The notes under the pieces were generated by a model. That model was not told the DNA's origin, searched no databases, and saw nothing but the letters and a program-made list of their open reading frames with translations. The position numbers were made by a program, and so were the translations under genes. Below are positions 927 to 14,386 of a stretch of 64,000 nucleotides of DNA, one piece after another (within the stretch, counting starts at the first letter, position 1; each line of letters begins with the position of its first letter). This DNA is from Pseudomonadota bacterium (GTDB lineage Bacteria > Pseudomonadota > Alphaproteobacteria > Dongiales > Dongiaceae), in assembly GCA_016183985.1 (NCBI GenBank), contig JACPDN010000011.1:248001-312000 (forward strand), read 5' to 3'.

Positions 927-3900
927 TCATTGCGCGGCAGGCGCTTTGGCGGCGGCGAGCTGGCGGGAAACCAGTCTGGCATAAAGACCGCCACGTGCCA
1001 TCAGTTCCCCCGGTGTGCCAATTTCAGCGACACGACCGGAATCCAGCACCACGATAAGATCGGCATGGCGCACGGTCGACAGACGATGGGCGATGACGAT
1101 CGTCGTTCGCGATTCCTGCAGGAGATCGAGGGCCCGGCGCACCGCCTGTTCATTGGCGGCATCGAGATGCGATGTCGCTTCGTCGAGGATCAGGATCGGT
1201 GCATTCTTCAGGAAAGCGCGGGCAATGGCGACGCGCTGGCGCTGGCCGCCCGACAGACTGGTGCCACGCTCACCAACCGATGCCTCCAGCCCTTCAGGTA
1301 AAGCCGCGACGAGGTCGGCGAGCGAGGCGTGCTCGATCGCAGCCGCGAGTTCGGCCTCGCTTGCTTGCGGACGGGCGATCAGCACATTGCTGCGCAAGCT
1401 GTCATTGAAGAGATAGGTATCCTGGGCGACCAGGGCCATTTCCGCCCTGAGATCGTCGAGCTTGTAATCGCGCAGATCCGCGCCGTTGAGACGGATTGCG
1501 CCGCGGTCCGGATCCCAGAAGCGCATGAGCAATTGCGCAGTCGTGGTCTTGCCGGCACCGGAGGTGCCGACGAGAGCCACCGTCTTGCCAGCCGGGATCG
1601 TGACACGGACGTCATTCAAGGCGGCACGTGCCTGGCCGGGATAGGTGAAAGCGACATGCTCGAGCACCAGTCCAGTTTCGGCAGACCGTCGTCCCTGCGG
1701 CACGCCCGGGCCATCCGTTACGGGTACCGGCTCGTTCATCAACGCATAGATGCGGCGCGTGGCTCCCAAAGTGTCCGCCAGTTGCCGGCCGATCTGCGCG
1801 ATTTCTGAGACGGGAAGGAAAGCCGCCATGGCAAGGAGCGAGAAAAGTGGCAGCGCAGCCGCATCCACCCGACCCTGCTGTGCCAGCCATCCGCCCACCA
1901 CAACGGTCGCCAGGCCGCCAAGCCCGGTCAGGACCTCGAGCAGCGATTGCTGGAAAGTGAGGTCTTTGAAAAAGGGCAGACGTAGGCGGATATGCCGGTC
2001 GGAAAGGCGATCGAGCTGCCGGCCCCGGATTTCCTCTTGCTGGAAGGCGACGATTTCGCCCAAGCCCTGCACACTATCGATGGCAAAAGCGCCGAGCTCA
2101 CCGGCCGCCTCCCGTGCGTCAGAAGCAAGGCGGTCGGAACGGTGCCGCCCGAAGAACGGCGCCAATGCAACAGCGGCCAGGAACGGGATGAGCGCCAGCG
2201 CGAGCCAGGGATTGGCCTCGGCCAGCACGATCAGCACTGCCGCCGGCACCAGCACCGCCACGAAAGCTGGCGCCACGGTATGGGCGAAGAAGTATTCGAT
2301 GAGCTCGATATCGTTGGTGACCAGCGCCATCAAATCGCCGGTCCTGCGACGCACGAGGTAAGCTGGGGCAAGCGCGTCGAGCTTGCGGAAGATGTCGAGG
2401 CGCATCTTGGCGAGCAAGCGGAACGCCATGTCATGGGCGATCCAGGATTCCAGCCAATGCAACGCCCCCGATAGCGGCGCCAGAACGGCAAGCCCCCGAA
2501 GATAAGGCGTGTAATCCGTGCCGTTCTTCAGTCCTGCCACGGCAAGTGCTGAAAGAACGCCGATGCCGATGAAGGCAAGAACGCGCAGCACGCCGAAGAT
2601 GAAAGTGACGGCAAGACGCCCCTTCCACGGCATGATGACGCGCATCAAATTGGCGATCACCTGATACCAGGTGAGGCCTTCCGCCTTCAGGATTCCTTCG
2701 GTCACCTGCTTGACCGGCTCACCCGCGGCCATGGTTTCGACACTTTGAACGGGTGCCAGGTCGATATCGAGCGGCTCGGCTGCTTCCTGCACCTGCTCGG
2801 CCATCAGGCGTGCATAGATGCCGCCACGACGCAGCAAGCTGCCATGATCTCCCTCCTCCGCCACCCGGCCTTTGTCGAGGACCAGGATGCGATCGCAGCC
2901 GATGACGCTGGAAAGGCGGTGGGCAAGGACGAGTGTGGTGCGGCCTTGCATCAGGCGATCGAGGGAGGCCTGGATGGCCGCTTCATTCTCGGCATCAACG
3001 GCGGAGAGCGCCTCATCGAGGATGAGGATCGGCGCGTCACGCAGCAAGGCGCGGGCAATGGCGACACGCTGGCGCTGGCCGCCAGAGAGTTTGATGCCCT
3101 TCTCACCGATGAGCGCATCGTAACCCTGAGGCAGTGATTGGATGAAGTCGTGGATATTGGCGGCCTTGGCGGCCGTCTCGATCTCTGCCTGACTTGCCTC
3201 CGCCTTGCCCATGCGCAGATTGTCGGCAATTGTGCCATGGAACAGGAAGGTATCCTGGTTGACCACCGCGATCATGCCGCGAATGTCGGCAAGGCTGAGG
3301 TCGCGCAAGTTATGGCCACCGAGCCGAATGCTGCCCGTTTCAGGATCGTAGAAGCGCAGTAGCAAACGCACGATCGAGGATTTGCCACCGCCCGAGGTAC
3401 CGACGAGGCCGATGCGCTCGCCAGGACGCACGGTGAAACTGAGCCCCTCATGCACGATGCGGCTCGTGCCAGGATAGCGGAAGGCAACGTTCTCGAAGCT
3501 GAGTTCGGGCATTAGCTTGGCCGCCGCTACCACATTGGAATCCACCACATCCGGCCGATCGTCCAGGATCTTGTAAATACCTTGGGCCGCCGACATGCCG
3601 ACCATGCCCTGGTGCAGAACCGAACGCAGATCGCGCATCGGCCGGTAGATCTCGACACCGAGCATCAGAATCACCAGCAATGCGGTCAGCGACAAGCCGC
3701 CGCCTTCGACACGGTAGGCACCGAGCGCCAAAGCGGCGGCGGCACCGCAGGCAATGGCGCTGTCGGTGATGCCGCGTGAAAGAACATTGGTGGCGAGCAC
3801 CCACATGGTGCGGCGAAAGAGCGTGTCGGCCTCAAGCTCCAGCTTGTCGGCTCGCGCCTTGCTTTGACCGAACGCCTTTAAGGTGGCGAGGCCCTGAATG

Positions 3901-4502
3901 GAATCGAGGAACTCAGCGGCAAAGGATTCGTAAGAGACCTGCCGCGCTGCTGAACGGCGCACATCAAATCGATGCCACAGGCCTGGCGCAAAGAGCGCGA
4001 TCAGGCCGAAGCTCAACATGACAACAGCGACCGGCAGATCAATGAAGGCAATGACGGCGAAAATCAGGATCGGCGTCAGCAGGGCAATGAGGAATTGCGG
4101 CAGGAACTGGCCGAAATAGGTCTCAAGCTGTTCGACACCGTCGATGAGCGAAAGTGTCAGGGCGCCGGAGCGCTTCTGCAGAACGCGACCGGGGCCAAGT
4201 GCCGCAATTCGGTCGTAAAGCGTGCGCCGTAGCCGCTTCTGCACCGCACCGGCCGTTTCATGCGCCACCATGATGCGCCAATAGTCGAAGATGCCGCGCA
4301 GGATCATGACGACAGCGATACCAAGGATTGGATAGGTGAGCGCCACCAGATCGCTGCCGGCAAAGATCGCGCCGATCAGCCAGCCGAGCAGCGCCAGCCG
4401 GGCGACGCCGAAGCCAACGGCGAGGAGTCCAAGGACCGTTGCCCAGGCGATGCGCCCCCGCACCCCTTCCGTGAAAACCCAAAGTCTTTTTTCGATATGC
4501 AT
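927..4502 (-). CDS. Fused CydDC-type ABC exporter (two TMD-NBD units in one chain)
   Basis: This 1191-residue membrane protein has two complete ABC exporter units in tandem. In unit 1, a transmembrane domain (residues 1-320) precedes Walker A GTSGGGKSS near residue 370 and signature LSGGQRQRVAIARA near 470. In unit 2, a transmembrane domain (about 620-900) precedes Walker A GTSGAGKTT near 977 and signature LSGGQRQRVAIARA near 1080. Both Walker B/D-loop motifs (ILILDEALS, ILILDEATS) are intact. The first half has the CydD-like stretch VEQLETYFGQFLPQ. CydD and CydC are normally separate genes exporting thiols (cysteine, glutathione) needed for cytochrome bd assembly; here they would be one chain. 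No cydA or cydB lies nearby. The start at 4502 follows GGGGTTGGAT and drops an unlikely 34-residue extension. It is divergent from a LysR regulator. The exact substrate is not determinable from sequence. Confidence 0.8.
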   Translation of the reverse strand: MHIEKRLWVFTEGVRGRIAWATVLGLLAVGFGVARLALLGWLIGAIFAGSDLVALTYPILGIAVVMILRGIFDYWRIMVAHETAGAVQKRLRRTLYDRIAALGPGRVLQKRSGALTLSLIDGVEQLETYFGQFLPQFLIALLTPILIFAVIAFIDLPVAVVMLSFGLIALFAPGLWHRFDVRRSAARQVSYESFAAEFLDSIQGLATLKAFGQSKARADKLELEADTLFRRTMWVLATNVLSRGITDSAIACGAAAALALGAYRVEGGGLSLTALLVILMLGVEIYRPMRDLRSVLHQGMVGMSAAQGIYKILDDRPDVVDSNVVAAAKLMPELSFENVAFRYPGTSRIVHEGLSFTVRPGERIGLVGTSGGGKSSIVRLLLRFYDPETGSIRLGGHNLRDLSLADIRGMIAVVNQDTFLFHGTIADNLRMGKAEASQAEIETAAKAANIHDFIQSLPQGYDALIGEKGIKLSGGQRQRVAIARALLRDAPILILDEALSAVDAENEAAIQASLDRLMQGRTTLVLAHRLSSVIGCDRILVLDKGRVAEEGDHGSLLRRGGIYARLMAEQVQEAAEPLDIDLAPVQSVETMAAGEPVKQVTEGILKAEGLTWYQVIANLMRVIMPWKGRLAVTFIFGVLRVLAFIGIGVLSALAVAGLKNGTDYTPYLRGLAVLAPLSGALHWLESWIAHDMAFRLLAKMRLDIFRKLDALAPAYLVRRRTGDLMALVTNDIELIEYFFAHTVAPAFVAVLVPAAVLIVLAEANPWLALALIPFLAAVALAPFFGRHRSDRLASDAREAAGELGAFAIDSVQGLGEIVAFQQEEIRGRQLDRLSDRHIRLRLPFFKDLTFQQSLLEVLTGLGGLATVVVGGWLAQQGRVDAAALPLFSLLAMAAFLPVSEIAQIGRQLADTLGATRRIYALMNEPVPVTDGPGVPQGRRSAETGLVLEHVAFTYPGQARAALNDVRVTIPAGKTVALVGTSGAGKTTTAQLLMRFWDPDRGAIRLNGADLRDYKLDDLRAEMALVAQDTYLFNDSLRSNVLIARPQASEAELAAAIEHASLADLVAALPEGLEASVGERGTSLSGGQRQRVAIARAFLKNAPILILDEATSHLDAANEQAVRRALDLLQESRTTIVIAHRLSTVRHADLIVVLDSGRVAEIGTPGELMARGGLYARLVSRQLAAAKAPAAQ

Positions 4503-6346: not shown

Positions 6347-8336
6347 ACGTCTGCATGCCGTGCTTGCGGCCATGCCGCTTGCCCTCGCCCCCACTGAGCC
6401 CCGTGCCTGCCGGTTGCCAGTTCGGCACCAACTGGTGTTTGCCGGGGCCTATGAGATCGGCGCGGCCCATGCCTTTCAACGCATCGCGCAGCAATGGCCA
6501 GTTCTCCGCATCATGATAGCGCAGAAAAGCCTTGTGCAGGCGACGCTGCTTCAGCCCTTTTACCGTCTCAACCGGCTCGGACGAGCCATGGCGGATCGGT
6601 CTCAATGGGTTGAAGCCCGAATGATACATGGCCGTAGAGAGCGCCATCGGCGACGGCAGGAAAGTCTGCACCTGGTCGGCACGGTATTTATTGCGCTTCA
6701 GCCAAAGCGCCAGATTCATCATGTCCTCATCCGTCGTACCCGGATGTGCGGCGATGAAATACGGAATGAGGAAGTACTCCTTCTTCGCTTCCTTAGCCGC
6801 CTTGTCGAACAGCTCCTTGAATTTGTCGTAAGCGCCGATGCCCGGCTTCATCATTTTTGAGAGCGGGCCTTCCTCGGTATGCTCCGGGGCGATCTTCAGA
6901 TAGCCGCCGACATGGTGGGCGACCAGTTCCTTGATATAGGCGGGGCTTTTGACGGCAAGATCGTAACGCACGCCGGAGGCCACCATTATCTTTTTGATGC
7001 CCGGGATCTCGCGGCTCTTGCGATAAAGGCCAATGAGCGATTCATGGCTGGTATTGAGGTTCGGGCAGACATCCGGAAAGACACAGGAAGGCTTGCGGCA
7101 CAATTCCTCGGTGCGCTTATCCTTGCAGGCCATGCGGTACATATTGGCGGTGGGACCACCAATGTCGGAGATGATACCGGTGAACCCCTTGGTCTTGTCG
7201 CGGATCTGCTCAATTTCCTTGAGAATCGATCCTTCCGAACGATTTTGAATAATGCGCCCTTCGTGCTCGGTGATGGAGCAGAACGAGCAACCGCCGAAGC
7301 AGCCGCGCATGATCGTCACGGAAAAGCGGATCATGTCCCATGCCGCGATTTTCGCATCTCCGTATGAGGGGTGCGGCGCGCGGGCATAGGGTAGTTCGAA
7401 AACGCCATCCATTTCCGGCGTCTCAAGGGGAATGGGTGGCGGCGTCACCCAGAGTTCACGATTGCCATGGCGCTGCACCAGGGCGCGCGCATTGCCGGGA
7501 TTGCTTTCCCGGTGCAGCACACGGGAAGCGCGGGCATAGGCTTCGGGATCTTTCTCGACTTGCTCGAAGGAAGGCATGCGAACGACAACATTGCCGTCAA
7601 GTCGGCGGGCGCCTTCCGCAGCATCGTCGAGATCGTTGGCAGGTGCCTCGCTCCAACCGTCCAGCACCCTGTCCTTCATCAGCGCAATGCCGCGGATATT
7701 TGCCATGTCGGCGATCTTTTCGCCCTTGGCAAGGCGATGTGTGACTTCGACCACGGCGCGCTCGGCATTGCCATAGAGCAGGATGTCGCCCTTGGCGTCC
7801 ACCAGGACCGAGCGTCGCACTTTGTCCGACCAGTAATCGTAATGCGCAATACGCCGCAGCGAGCTTTCGATGCCGCCGAGAACGATCGGCACATCCTTAT
7901 AGGCCTCGCGACAACGATGCGCGTAGACGACAACGGCCCGGTCCGGGCGCTTGCCACCTTCGTCATTGGGCGTGTAGCTGTCGTTGTGGCGCAACCGGCG
8001 ATCTGCCGTATAGCGGTTCACCATGGAATCCATGTTGCCGCCGGTGATGCCAAAATAGAGGTTGGGCCTGCCCAGTGCCCTGAAGGGTTCAGCCGACTGC
8101 CAATCCGGTTGCGCGATGATGCCGACGCGGAAGCCTTGCGCTTCCAGCAAGCGCCCGATCACCGCCATGCCGAAGCTTGGGTGATCGATGTAGGCATCGC
8201 CGGTTACTAGGATGACGTCGCAGGAATCCCAGCCAAGCTCGTCCATCTCTGCCCGAGACATCGGCAGAAAAGGCGCCGTGCCGAAACGCTGCGCCCAGTA
8301 TTTGCGGTGCGAGAAGAGTTGCTTCGCGACTTCCAT
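6312..8336 (-). CDS. YgiQ family radical SAM protein (UPF0313)
   Basis: This 674-residue protein is a radical S-adenosylmethionine enzyme of the YgiQ family. The N-terminal part has the near-invariant blocks [18 protein letters not shown] and [20 protein letters not shown], with VGIIAQPDW just after. The radical SAM cluster motif is CFGGCSFC (CxxxCxxC) in [19 protein letters not shown], near residue 350. The C-terminus is rich in Lys/Arg and ends [10 protein letters not shown]. The reaction of YgiQ proteins is not established. The start at 8336 matches the family's usual beginning shortly before the APFLPMSR block; the upstream in-frame extension is Cys/Arg-rich and unlike the family. It is monocistronic and convergent with the small genes at 6079-6346. 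Confidence 0.92.
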
Positions 8337-9054: not shown

Positions 9055-10026
9055 TCAAATCGCCAGGAGCGCAGAGTTCGTAGGCGGGCTGACCGGCAAG
9101 CCGGCCAACTGATTGCGGCGCCATTGCGCCGGAGTTACACCCATGTGTTGCTTGAAAACGCGCTGAAATGCCGCCTCCGATTGGTAGCCAGCGAGGCCAG
9201 CTGCCATGGCGGTGGAAACGCCAGGCTTCCTCAACTCGTTGGCCGCCAAAGTCATTCGAACATCCATGAGCAGTTCCGCGGCGGAACGACCAAGACTCTC
9301 CTGGAAATGCCGAGCAAAAGTCGCGCGCGACATACGACAGATGTTGGCAAGCTCTGGCAATGTCCAGGAATGCGCCGGCCGATTGAAGATGGCGGTGAGC
9401 GCCGGCGCCAAGCGCTGATGTTTAGCGAGCGTCAACAGTCCGGGCGGCCCTACCACCACTTCACCGGCGCATCGTAGTGAAACGGTGAAGAGTGCTGCGG
9501 AGAGAGCGTTCAGCAAGGCACGGCCACCGAGACTTTCAGCGGCGACTTCGCGACGCATCAACTCTATCAGCGTCGACATCTGTGCGCCGTGCGCGCCATT
9601 GTCGATGTCATCACGGCGAATGACGATACGGGGTGGCAAATAGTTGCGTAGCAGCTGGATATGCGACACCGACAGGAGGAACCGCCCGCACAGCATATCC
9701 AGGCGTTCACCGGGGCCGCTGTTCTCATGGATCAGTACATTGACGCCGGCACGACGGCGAACCGGAGCCACTACGCCCCCGCTGCCGTCATGAAGTAGAT
9801 GCGCGCGACCATCCGGTAGGATCAGCACGTCACCGGCTTTGAGATGCTGAGGCGGACCTGCGGCCGGATCCTCGAGCGTCAATCCGCCCTCGGTAATGAC
9901 ATGATATTGGATCTCCCCAGCCGCGGCTGCAGCGTGGTCGACCCGCCAGGGGGCGCCAAAAGTGCATCGGATATCCAGCTGTCCCTGCACGGAGACAAGA
10001 TCGAGAAGCCTACTCAGCCAGTCCAT
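9055..10026 (-). CDS. AraC family transcriptional regulator with N-terminal cupin domain
   Basis: This 323-residue regulator has an N-terminal cupin-type effector domain (residues 1-170; HLKAGDVLILPDGRAHLL is the barrel strand pair). The C-terminal AraC double helix-turn-helix spans about 220-305, with LPELANICRMSRATFARHF in the first HTH and GYQSEAAFQRVFKQHMG then TPAQWRR in the second. The start at 10026 follows GGAGGGAAA and replaces an in-frame upstream start at 10068. It is divergent from the AhpD-like gene at 10144, a common arrangement in proteobacteria, so control of that gene is the likely job. The inducer is unknown. Confidence 0.9.
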   Translation of the reverse strand: MDWLSRLLDLVSVQGQLDIRCTFGAPWRVDHAAAAAGEIQYHVITEGGLTLEDPAAGPPQHLKAGDVLILPDGRAHLLHDGSGGVVAPVRRRAGVNVLIHENSGPGERLDMLCGRFLLSVSHIQLLRNYLPPRIVIRRDDIDNGAHGAQMSTLIELMRREVAAESLGGRALLNALSAALFTVSLRCAGEVVVGPPGLLTLAKHQRLAPALTAIFNRPAHSWTLPELANICRMSRATFARHFQESLGRSAAELLMDVRMTLAANELRKPGVSTAMAAGLAGYQSEAAFQRVFKQHMGVTPAQWRRNQLAGLPVSPPTNSALLAI

Positions 10027-10865: not shown

Positions 10866-13007
10866 ATGAAAGAGATTCCAAATCGGCCAGCGCTTTCGAC
10901 GGGCAATGTCGCGCGTCAGAGTCTTGCCTCACGCCTGCCATTGTCACTTAAAATCCTGTTGCCAATCGTGTTCGCTGTGGCGCTGGGCTATGCGACATCA
11001 ACTTGGGTGTCATCGGAGCGCAGCGGCACCATCGTCAACGACCTCGCCATGTCGGAGGGTCAACAGATGGCCCAGGCACGCGCGGCCGAAATGCAGGCGA
11101 TGTTCAACGCGAAATACCAGATCGCCTTCAGCCTGCGCGACGCCTATCTCGGCATGCGCGGCGAGAACGCACTCAACCGTCAGGCTTTCACGGCAGCACT
11201 CCGCGCTGCTCTCAAGGCAAACCCCGACCTCGTAGGCGTTTGGGCCGGGTTCCAGCCCAATGCCTTCGACGGCAACGACCAAGCCAGCATCGGCAGCGAG
11301 GGCGCCGATGAAACCGGCCGCTACGTGCCCTATGCCTATCCGGATAGCGGCCAGATCAAGCTCGACCCGATGAAGTCGCTCGACAAGCAGGATGCGAGCG
11401 GTGACTTCTACCAGATCCCGTTCAAGACGGGTGAGGATACGGTGCTTGAACCCTATATCTACGCGCTCGCCGGCAAGGACACCTTGCTCGTCAGCCTAGC
11501 CACGCCAGTAAAGGTGGACGGCAAAGTCGTCGGTGTCATCGGTGTCGACATGTCACTGGAGCAGATGAACCAGAACCTTCTCAAAGTGCGCCCCTACGGC
11601 ACCGGTTCGATCGGTGTTATTTCCAGCGGCGGCTTGATGGCGGCTTCGATCGACGCCAAGAATCTCGGCAAGCAATTCGCGACCTTGAGCCCGAGCTTCA
11701 AGGACGCCCTGCCCCGCGCCCAGGCCGGTGAGAGCTTCGCCATTACCGATTGGTCGAATGCGCTGCAGACCGATGTCACGCGCGTTTTCGTTCCCTTGAA
11801 GATCGGTCAGGTTGAGAAGCCATGGGCGGTGATGCTGAACTTGCCCGACGACAAGATCATGGCCCCAGTGCGCGAGGTCATGTTCGTCAACGCGATCATC
11901 GCAGCAGTCGTCGTCGTGCTGCTGGCCATCGTCATCATGATGCTGGTACGCTTCGTTGCCGCGCGCCCGGTGAAGGCGCTGACCCAGGCGGTCGACGCAC
12001 TTGCCCACGGCAACACCTCGGTCACGGTGCCAATGACCGATCGCGGCGACGAAATGGGCGTCATGGCAAAGGCGGTCGAGTTCTTCCGCCAGAAGCTGAT
12101 AGAGGTCGAAGATCTACGTCTCGCACAAGCCCAGGCGGAAAAGAATGCCGCCGAGGAGCGCCGCCATACGATGCTGCAGTTGGCCGACGGTTTCGAAGCC
12201 AGCGTGAAAGGTATCGTTCAGACGGTCTCGAGCGCCGCCACTCAGCTTGAGTCGAACGCGCAATCGATGTCCGCCGTGGCTGAGGAGAGTTCACGCCAAG
12301 CCAATGTTGTTGCCAACGCGGCGACCGAGGCCTCGCAGAACGTCACCACGGTGGCCGCAGCCTCGGAAGAGCTCTCCAGCTCGATCAACGAGATCAGCCG
12401 GCAGGTCGCTGAGAGCAGCGGCATCACCCGCGTCGCGGTCGACGAGGTAGCCAAGACCGGTCAGACGGTCGAAAGCCTCGCGGTGGCTGCCGAAAAGATC
12501 GGTGGCATCGTGCAGCTGATCAACGACATCGCCAGCCAGACCAATCTGCTGGCCTTGAATGCCACGATCGAAGCTGCCCGTGCTGGCGATGCCGGCAAGG
12601 GATTCGCGGTGGTGGCGTCGGAAGTGAAGAACCTGGCAACCCAGACTTCGAAGGCGACCGAGGAAATCTCCGGCCAGATTTCGGGGATGCAGGATGTGAC
12701 ACGGGCTGCCGCCGCTGCCATGTCGCAGATCCGCGGCACCATCAATCGTATCGACGAAATCTCGTCGGGCATCGCCGCGGCGGTCGAGGAGCAGTCGGCC
12801 GCCACTCAGGAAATCTCGAACAACGCACAACAGGCCGCCCGTGGCACCGATGAGGTCAATCGGAACATCACCGGCGTCAGCCGCGCCTCGGAAGATGCTG
12901 GCTCCGCCTCATCTCAGGTGTTGAGTGCCGCCGGCGACCTCTCGCGCCAGTCGCACGCCCTTGCCAACGAAGTCGACAACTTCATCGCCAAGGTCCGCGC
13001 TGGATAA
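10866..13007 (+). CDS. Methyl-accepting chemotaxis protein with double-Cache-type sensor
   Basis: This 713-residue chemoreceptor has a transmembrane helix at about residues 27-47 and a large periplasmic Cache-type sensor to about 335 ([12 protein letters not shown], then [14 protein letters not shown] and [13 protein letters not shown]). A second helix follows at about 338-362, then a HAMP linker ([14 protein letters not shown]) and a cytoplasmic signalling coiled coil. The hairpin tip [20 protein letters not shown] that binds CheA/CheW lies near residue 550. It senses a small periplasmic ligand and signals to the flagellar CheA pathway, implying a motile organism. No che genes are close. The ribosome binding site is weak. 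A strong terminator at 13028 ends the unit, which appears monocistronic. Confidence 0.95.
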
Positions 13008-13027
13008 GCAACCCCGTCGGCCAAACG

Positions 13028-13066
13028 AAAGCCCGCATGCGACAGCAGCCGCCTGCGGGCTTTTTC
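13028..13066 (+). terminator. Intrinsic terminator of the chemoreceptor gene
   Basis: AAAGCCCGCA (13028-13037) pairs with TGCGGGCTTT (13054-13063), followed by a T-rich tract, 20 bases after the chemoreceptor stop. Confidence 0.88.
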
Positions 13067-13092
13067 TTTACGCAAATTGGCCGCTACCGAAT

Positions 13093-13126
13093 CCAACACC
13101 TGGAGTGTCCCAACACCTGGCGTGTC
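13093..13126. repeat. Two tandem copies of a 17-base unit
   Basis: CCAACACCTGGAGTGTC and CCAACACCTGGCGTGTC lie head to tail with one mismatch in the gap before the hemerythrin gene. Each contains ACACCTGG-x-GTGT, an imperfect dyad (ACAC...GTGT) that could bind a dimeric regulator. Confidence 0.75.
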
Positions 13127-13301
13127 ACGGAGTCCGAAAATATCATTCGGCTTGAATGGTAGGACGACGGGCCTGAATCTCGGCGGCACATCCTGCCCTC
13201 CGCATTGCGGCGTCGCAATTTTGGAGAGCTTTCAATTGAGACGAGAGTTAGTGCAATATGCGCTTGGAAGTAGCATCCACTTTAGAGTGAGCGTGTAAGT
13301 C

Positions 13302-13907
13302 ATGTACTCACTGCTGCCATCAATGCAAACTGGCATTTCTCACATCGATTCCGAGCACCAGGATCTGGTTGCGGCGATCAACCGGATCGAGGCAGCAGCA
13401 CTATCTCAAGATGCGCCAGCGGTTCTAGCCTGCCTAGACGCCTTCCGGACGGAACTTACGGGGCATTTTTTGAATGAGGAACGATACCTGCGCATGATGC
13501 AGTACCCGGCATGCGATAGCCATTCGCACCATCATGCGGAAGTGGTCGCGTCAATTGATCAACTGCGACGCGGCGTATCTGCGGGTGGCGTCGATCTGGC
13601 GAATGTTGCCCCCGAATGCTTTACCGATCTGCTTGGGGCCGTCGTGACGATGGATATGCGTTTCCTGAATTGGCTCGAAGACCAGCGCCTAAAGGGGCCG
13701 ACTTCGGGCGGCGGGCAGGCTCTGACGCGCCGCCCCACGCTTAAGCGCGCCAGACGCCGCAGCCTCGCCGCTTTTAAGCCGCGTTTTTTACGTGCTTTGC
13801 CCACGAGCGAAATGAGCCGGCAAGGCCGACTCCGACACGAAGCTAAGATTTTGATTTCTTTGCGGGAAATGGCGCACCCGGAAGGACTCGAACCTCCAAC
13901 CTTCTGA
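13302..13907 (+). CDS. Hemerythrin-domain protein with anomalous C-terminal readthrough into tRNA-Arg
   Basis: Residues 1-131 form a bacteriohemerythrin-type four-helix domain that would bind O2 at a di-iron centre. Visible ligands are H19 (DSEH), H55 and E59 (HFLNEE), H74 and H78 (HSHHH), and D118. The sixth position expected to be His (five before the Asp) is A113, so the ligand set is incomplete. After W124 the chain continues about 70 residues of basic, low-quality sequence and ends MAHPEGLEPPTF, the translation of the tRNA-Arg gene read on the wrong strand. Hemerythrins of this type end near residue 135, and a TAA in the +1 frame sits at 13690-13692, so a frameshift or lost stop is likely. 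The ribosome binding site is weak. The core call is good; the C-terminus is doubtful. Confidence 0.7.
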   Translation: MYSLLPSMQTGISHIDSEHQDLVAAINRIEAAALSQDAPAVLACLDAFRTELTGHFLNEERYLRMMQYPACDSHSHHHAEVVASIDQLRRGVSAGGVDLANVAPECFTDLLGAVVTMDMRFLNWLEDQRLKGPTSGGGQALTRRPTLKRARRRSLAAFKPRFLRALPTSEMSRQGRLRHEAKILISLREMAHPEGLEPPTF

Positions 13908-13946
13908 TTCGTAGTCAGATGCTCTATCCAATTGAGCTACGGGTGC
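13870..13946 (-). tRNA. tRNA-Arg (anticodon ACG)
   Basis: Read on the minus strand, 77 bases form a full cloverleaf. The acceptor stem is GCACCCG/CGGGTGC, the D arm holds AGCTCAATTGGATAGAGC, the anticodon loop is CTACGAA (ACG, wobble A expected to be edited to inosine), and the T arm carries GGTTCGAGTCC. The 3' CCA is encoded. The hemerythrin reading frame overlaps its 3' half on the opposite strand. Confidence 0.97.
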
Positions 13947-14386
13947 GTCTTGTTCAAAGGTGGGTGGCGGCGAATTTTATTGCTGCCAGCCGAGTTGGAT
14001 GTCTCGGCCCCCGAACGGTGGCGGAAACTAGCCAAAGCCGATCACCATTGCAAGTTATTTGGCGCGGGTTTTTCAAGGATCGACGGAGCCAGGTTATAGT
14101 CTTGTTTTAAATTGGAAAACTGGCTGCAGCGAAACTGCTCCGGGGTGTCATCGATGCGTTATCCACAGCCTGCAGGCGCGAATCTGTTGCGGCTGCGACG
14201 CCCGGTCCCTGTGGCCCTCAGGCCACCCTGTGGCGGCAATGGCACGACCTAGTGGGCCGAACCCGACTTGGGCTGTTGATTCTTGTCCTGAAAGCTGCGA
14301 AGAACTGTTTTTGGGTAATGGGTTGAGTGAAGCTGAGGGGGTTTGGGACTTTGCTTTCGCTCGCAGTTTTTCGGGGTTCGGCAAGC
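13947..14386. other. Intergenic region before the lipoprotein gene, with a consensus DnaA box
   Basis: No convincing gene is seen in these 440 bases. The region holds the upstream sequences of tRNA-Arg (minus strand) and of the lipoprotein gene (plus strand). A perfect consensus DnaA box, TTATCCACA, lies at 14159-14167; no second box, A/T-rich unwinding element or replication gene accompanies it. Frames through the region are Cys/Arg/Trp-rich and look non-coding. Confidence 0.55.

Follow-up and report, generated by a model that had tools for sequence, protein, structure and literature searches.

The helix-D histidine of hemerythrins belongs to the iron that is held by three histidines. In the classical site, three histidines are found on one iron and two on the other, and the motif of canonical bacteriohemerythrins is H-HxxxE-HxxxH-HxxxxD, according to the excerpt at hand of PMC9388753. 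Departures from this ligand set have been described: 58 of 327 bacterial hemerythrin sequences have altered ligands, helix D being affected most rarely, with 6 alterations as against 45 in helix C (PMC2556348), and ligand variation is mentioned for alphaproteobacteria, among others, in a part of PMC4919030. For mycobacterial hemerythrin-like proteins, which have another ligand set, the available portion of PMC8913304 describes action on peroxide and NO. Natural C-terminal extensions occur in other hemerythrins, e.g. in Campylobacter HerB (PMC4257069, in excerpt), and frames that overlap tRNA genes are known to give rise to spurious protein sequences, as stated in extracts of PMC9710616 and PMC3534567.

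The locus described here lies in a window of 64,000 nucleotides, by which we mean the whole stretch of Dongia DNA that was analysed. A frame of 201 codons (13302-13907, plus strand; C-terminal end REMAHPEGLEPPTF, TGA at 13905-13907 in the list of open reading frames) runs into a tRNA-Arg(ACG) gene on the opposite strand, and its TGA falls inside this gene (13870-13946, minus strand, 3' end toward the hemerythrin gene), which was detected by both Rfam (RF00005, 71.1 bits) and ARAGORN. The first ~130 residues constitute a hemerythrin core (13302-13691, plus strand) and are followed by a tail of ~70 codons (residues 131-201 and the TGA, 13692-13907, plus strand). An earlier, sequence-only reading had described this layout, with a core that ends near residue 131, about 70 more codons and a stop within the opposite-strand tRNA, and the coordinates of the frame and the tRNA agree with it.

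The core scored above the cut-off for the Hemerythrin/HHE domain in Pfam (PF01814, residues 10-113, E 1.3e-10, 42.2 bits against a cut-off of 25.3) and for TIGR02481 in NCBIfam (62.4 bits against 51.75), and AlphaFold predicted a four-helix bundle (helices 13-34, 38-65, 71-93 and 99-130) with block-wise pLDDT values of 88-98 as far as residue 130. By profile and by predicted fold it is a member of the Hemerythrin/HHE domain family. Its best match in the PDB, both by sequence and by predicted fold, is DcrH-Hr (2avk, 2awc); the Foldseek comparison of the predicted core with this protein gave an E value of 9.5e-4 and a TM-score to the target of 0.83. The two proteins have the four-helix fold in common, and six of the seven iron ligands occur in both, in identical order. 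However, the helix-D histidine is absent from the window protein, in which Ala113 (codon at 13638-13640, plus strand) aligns with a histidine of DcrH-Hr, as had already been noticed from the sequence. The core also reached only 56.4 bits with NF033749, the bacteriohemerythrin profile, whose cut-off is 84, and the motif of the canonical O2-binding bacteriohemerythrins is incomplete at this one position.

The missing histidine had been taken for a defect of this protein, but it is missing from all four close relatives found as well. In the alignment of the five clade members, position 113 is occupied by A, N, T, A and V, and all five sequences keep H19, H55, E59, H74, H78 and D118. Cys106, Asn123 and Trp124 are also invariant in these five members. 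A larger set of hemerythrin domains was collected with a profile of the five clade members (E up to 1e-5) over the loci fetched for this analysis. The removal of near-identical sequences left 60 rows, and six chemoreceptor coiled-coil rows and four duplicates were then discarded, which resulted in 50 alphaproteobacterial domains. Residue 113 is His in 28 of these domains and otherwise D (11), I (3), A, V or E (2 each), N or T (1 each); H19 and H74 are present in 49 domains, and H55, E59, H78 and D118 in all 50. Because most loci were drawn with His-less queries, the proportion of domains without the helix-D His (22 of 50) is biased by the query and does not represent a census. These 22 domains form two groups, of 18 and 4. 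On a tree with many weak forks, for which the bootstrap was not settled, they need two changes, as against a mean of 16.6 after shuffling, with none of 500 shuffles as low. Support for the five-member clade is 98/97, and none of its end branches is shorter than that of the window row. The missing helix-D His is, to judge from these alignments, a trait of the lineage.

Ligand changes as such are common to this clade and to the altered-ligand hemerythrins in the literature. However, helix D was the least altered in the published surveys, whereas it is the varying site here. The present sample adds that variation among the ligand sites is nearly confined to helix D and that it marks groups. Our literature search, which included Dongia together with hemerythrin, found no description of this His-less clade, although this does not prove that none exists. 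An engineered variant of DcrH that lacks the helix-D His was considered as an analogy and dropped; the paper found deals, in the part available, with a change of Ile119 to His (PMC3947700). A second Dongia hemerythrin group, the group of four with I or V at position 113 (loci L011, L020, L098 and L101 in the genomes G006, G000, G003 and G004), carries a His at residue 117, immediately ahead of the bridging Asp. This residue is perhaps a shifted ligand.

Clade membership was defined as an E value below 1e-60 with the alignment A1. With this threshold, the clade was found in four of the seven genomes of the window's genus and in none of the ten other genomes of the family. Among the matches listed, with up to ten candidates scored per genome, the 385 genomes of the class contained at least one more clade genome (G102), which is also the only one among the four genomes of its order, and the 398 genomes of the phylum draw contained at least the window's genome and, among the matches listed at a limit of 1e-18, only this one. 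A search of wider genome contigs with the single protein yielded no relative; the alignment-based search yielded three, all of which are loci that had already been found. Among plasmids there was one weak match (30% identity, Azonexus), and the phage sequences and viral contigs searched contained no relative. The mobile-element reading discussed below thus rests on position and not on a carrier.

A long C-terminus in relatives, which the sequence-only reading would have accepted as a sign of a native tail, is absent from all four relatives found: the proteins of the congeners (41-44% identical) are 136, 133 and 133 residues long, the G102 protein is 133 residues long, and they end 7-12 residues past the position of W124. 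GC content by codon position is 0.68/0.40/0.58 in the core and 0.60/0.61/0.64 in the tail. With a codon score built on the codon usage of 34 genes of the window, the in-frame signal is about zero or below from 13692-13722 on, and the tail scored -0.113, which is below the first percentile (-0.086) of 230 in-frame blocks. The core, however, is low as well, at 0.153, near the 5th percentile. AlphaFold gave the tail pLDDT values of 34-52 by block and below 50 for nearly all of residues 135-201, i.e. it is predicted to be disordered. Since the alignment used consists of four rows, none of which extends over the tail, confidence is lowered there by the alignment itself, and the pLDDT values alone are thus weak evidence. 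A Pfam search of the tail, which is basic in its first half, gave no match. A stop-free run of 67 codons is expected with a probability of 0.135 at this base composition and is thus not beyond chance.

The last 36 codons (residues 166-201) read the tRNA-Arg and its 3' flank. They match, in frame, the tRNA-Arg flank on contig C19 of the congener G002 and a truncated copy on its contig C40, and the DNA matches of this genome to the tail region begin at 13797 and 13800. The sole clade member of G002 is located on contig C42, apart from both flank copies. In G002, the gene thus exists without the tail, and the end of the tail without the gene. Due to the shorter lengths of the relatives, the fading coding signal, the predicted disorder and the G002 flank without the gene, the tail reads as accidental, and the extended C-terminus most probably results by accident from the position of the gene. 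Spurious tRNA translations of the AntiFam type show the same overlap of a frame with a tRNA gene, but differ in that the window frame is fused in frame to a real gene. A transcript of the frame could possibly be antisense to the tRNA-Arg. Reading the tail as accidental removes a false oddity, a protein that ends in antisense-tRNA sequence, which annotation could propagate.

The gene is contained in a low-GC segment between the end of the chemoreceptor gene and the tRNA flank (13077-13796, no strand assigned; GC 0.568 versus 0.614), for which blastn gave no match in the 11 congener loci compared. The chemoreceptor (MCP) gene (10866-13007, plus strand; Pfam MCPsignal and HAMP) is the left landmark of the hotspot, and the 3' flank of the tRNA-Arg (13797-13869, minus strand) is the part that recurs at the two places of G002. 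Within the window's genome, there is no second match to the tRNA-Arg above 78% identity. On the 5' side of the tRNA-Arg, an OmpA-like gene and Kup are common to the genomes G000, G002, G004, G005 and G006; the 3' side varies among the same genomes. In G006 (C2, 281205-297566; L053 and L054), ~16 kb extend from the tRNA-Arg(ACG) to a 45-nt copy that repeats its 3' end exactly and has a tyrosine integrase beside it (L054, 4498-5853, minus strand). This copy is ~140 bp away from a chemoreceptor gene that is 93% identical to the one preceding the window hemerythrin. The ~16 kb of G006 are an integrated island at the tRNA-Arg that borders the gene of the window. The duplicated tRNA 3' end of an intact integrative element, as present in G006, was not found in the window, where no exact copy of at least 12 nt of the last 45 nt of the tRNA-Arg occurs elsewhere and no integrase was detected at the hemerythrin gene.

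Two further observations concern the surroundings of this tRNA. On contig C40 of G002 (L052), a shortened copy of the tRNA-Arg, followed by the same 3' flank, lies at ~9550-9680 and a tyrosine recombinase (Pfam) at 2899-3927, and the stretch has genes that by eye resemble partition and replication genes. Directly after the tRNA-Arg of the window there is a minus-strand hairpin (13814-13832), and this hairpin recurs on C19 of G002, where both partners of one base pair are changed. It is possibly the terminator of the tRNA-Arg; the flank 13797-13869 folds no better than shuffled sequences (z -0.92).

We assign a probability of about 0.7 to the following account of the locus as a whole. A real hemerythrin gene of ~130-136 codons would lie in a short low-GC accessory segment of a Dongia genome, at a hotspot of integration next to the tRNA-Arg(ACG), and would have lost its native stop by a point change, a small indel or a junction with other DNA. 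The frame would then run on through non-coding DNA and the antisense of the tRNA 3' flank into the tRNA itself. Its core comes from a subclade with a non-ligand residue in place of the helix-D His, and the coordination place opened in the predicted four-His site would favour redox chemistry or sensing (of peroxide, NO or O2) over reversible O2 carriage. In this account, the lengths, the ligand pattern, the context and the fading coding signal are observed, and the history of insertion, the binding of iron and the function are deduced. The overlong frame and lost native end proposed by the sequence-only reading fit the lengths of the relatives, the base and codon statistics and, with the caveat of alignment depth, the structure prediction; a point change, a frameshift and a base-calling error would all fit the sequence alike as the cause. 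An error of sequencing or assembly, with a normal stop masked by a single wrong base or indel close to where the core ends, is nevertheless unlikely in our view. It could point to a TAA in the +1 frame (13690-13692, plus strand), at which the protein would stop 5 residues past W124, as compared to the 7-12 residues of the relatives. This TAA exists as had been stated, but the claim that it sits exactly at the family's end loses its force: the chance of some out-of-frame stop within 14 codons is 0.59 and three other +1-frame stops (13645, 13666 and 13723) are found within 80 bases, and its place is thus not special. A GC hairpin just past 13705 was tried as a terminator and rejected, as it folds no better than shuffled sequences (z 0.62). 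The same holds for the sequence downstream of the stop codon in three relatives (z 0.58, 2.15 and 0.71), and no promoter or terminator consensus was found within 13000-14350.

The missing His and the missing stop could also indicate that selection has been relaxed on an accessory gene which is stranded and is decaying into a pseudogene. The third-position GC of the core (0.58 versus a mean of 0.735), its low codon score (0.153, near the 5th percentile) and the lost stop would be in line with decay, but the His is absent from relatives with intact stops as well, the other six ligands are kept, and no member of the clade has a shorter end branch than the window sequence, all of which makes decay quite improbable. 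Even less credible is a native long form with a functional tail, with or without an antisense effect on the tRNA-Arg: its 70-codon open frame and the extensions described for other hemerythrins (PMC4257069, in excerpt) have to be set against a tail that occurs in none of the four relatives, has no Pfam match, shows non-coding statistics and ends on tRNA sequence. We thus prefer the account of a real gene with a lost stop. The oddity of the C-terminus as first described appears ordinary, and the group of His-less hemerythrins near tRNA genes is mildly interesting.

For the core of this real gene, a di-iron site with four His and two carboxylates is predicted, in which each iron would have two His and the bridges would be Glu and Asp. 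The ligand count of such a site is the same as in RIC/YtfE, which also has an N-terminal ScdA domain. The accessible part of PMC9268430 describes RIC/YtfE as having two His on each iron and a pair of bridging carboxylates, and as reacting with NO; its bridges are two Glu, whereas those of the window protein would be Glu and Asp. No RIC-type sequence was detected in the window protein outside its hemerythrin domain, PF01814 being the only Pfam match at E up to 1. By analogy, we infer that the predicted site may have a redox or sensing role. Provided that the protein still binds iron, this would illustrate how an O2-carrier site could drift toward redox chemistry while the fold is kept. What looked like a broken ligand thereby becomes testable, as a naturally occurring clade of hemerythrins that do without precisely one of the iron ligands.

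The five clade members are located at five different tRNAs, each on the 3' side and all within 4 kb (Arg 0.18 kb, Ser 1.26 kb, Leu 1.28 kb, Lys 1.48 kb and Pro 3.88 kb). The combined P value for these distances is 7.5e-5, calculated post hoc on five loci and with 45 tRNAs assumed for G102. Flanks of 1.5 kb contained a tRNA in three of the five clade loci and in two of 45 distinct other hemerythrin loci, a few of which end at contig ends (one-sided Fisher P 0.005, likewise post hoc). As a tentative and rather doubtful extension, alphaproteobacteria might possess a broad class of hemerythrins, maintained by selection, that have given up only the helix-D His (for A, N, T, V, I, D or E) and keep the six other ligands nearly invariant; the four-His di-iron centre of this class would be tuned for peroxide, NO or redox sensing, and one branch would travel as cargo through tRNA-gene hotspots.

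A signalling-type neighbour gene common to all clade loci was not found. Individual loci have such neighbours, i.e. two PAS_5 genes near the hemerythrin of G002 (L026, 4835-5578 and 6392-6931), a response regulator near that of G102 (L103, ~6783-7220) and the chemoreceptor in the window. In G001, a gene of the AbiU2 type (HEPN) with low third-position GC is found between the tRNA-Leu and the hemerythrin (L028, 6122-6733).
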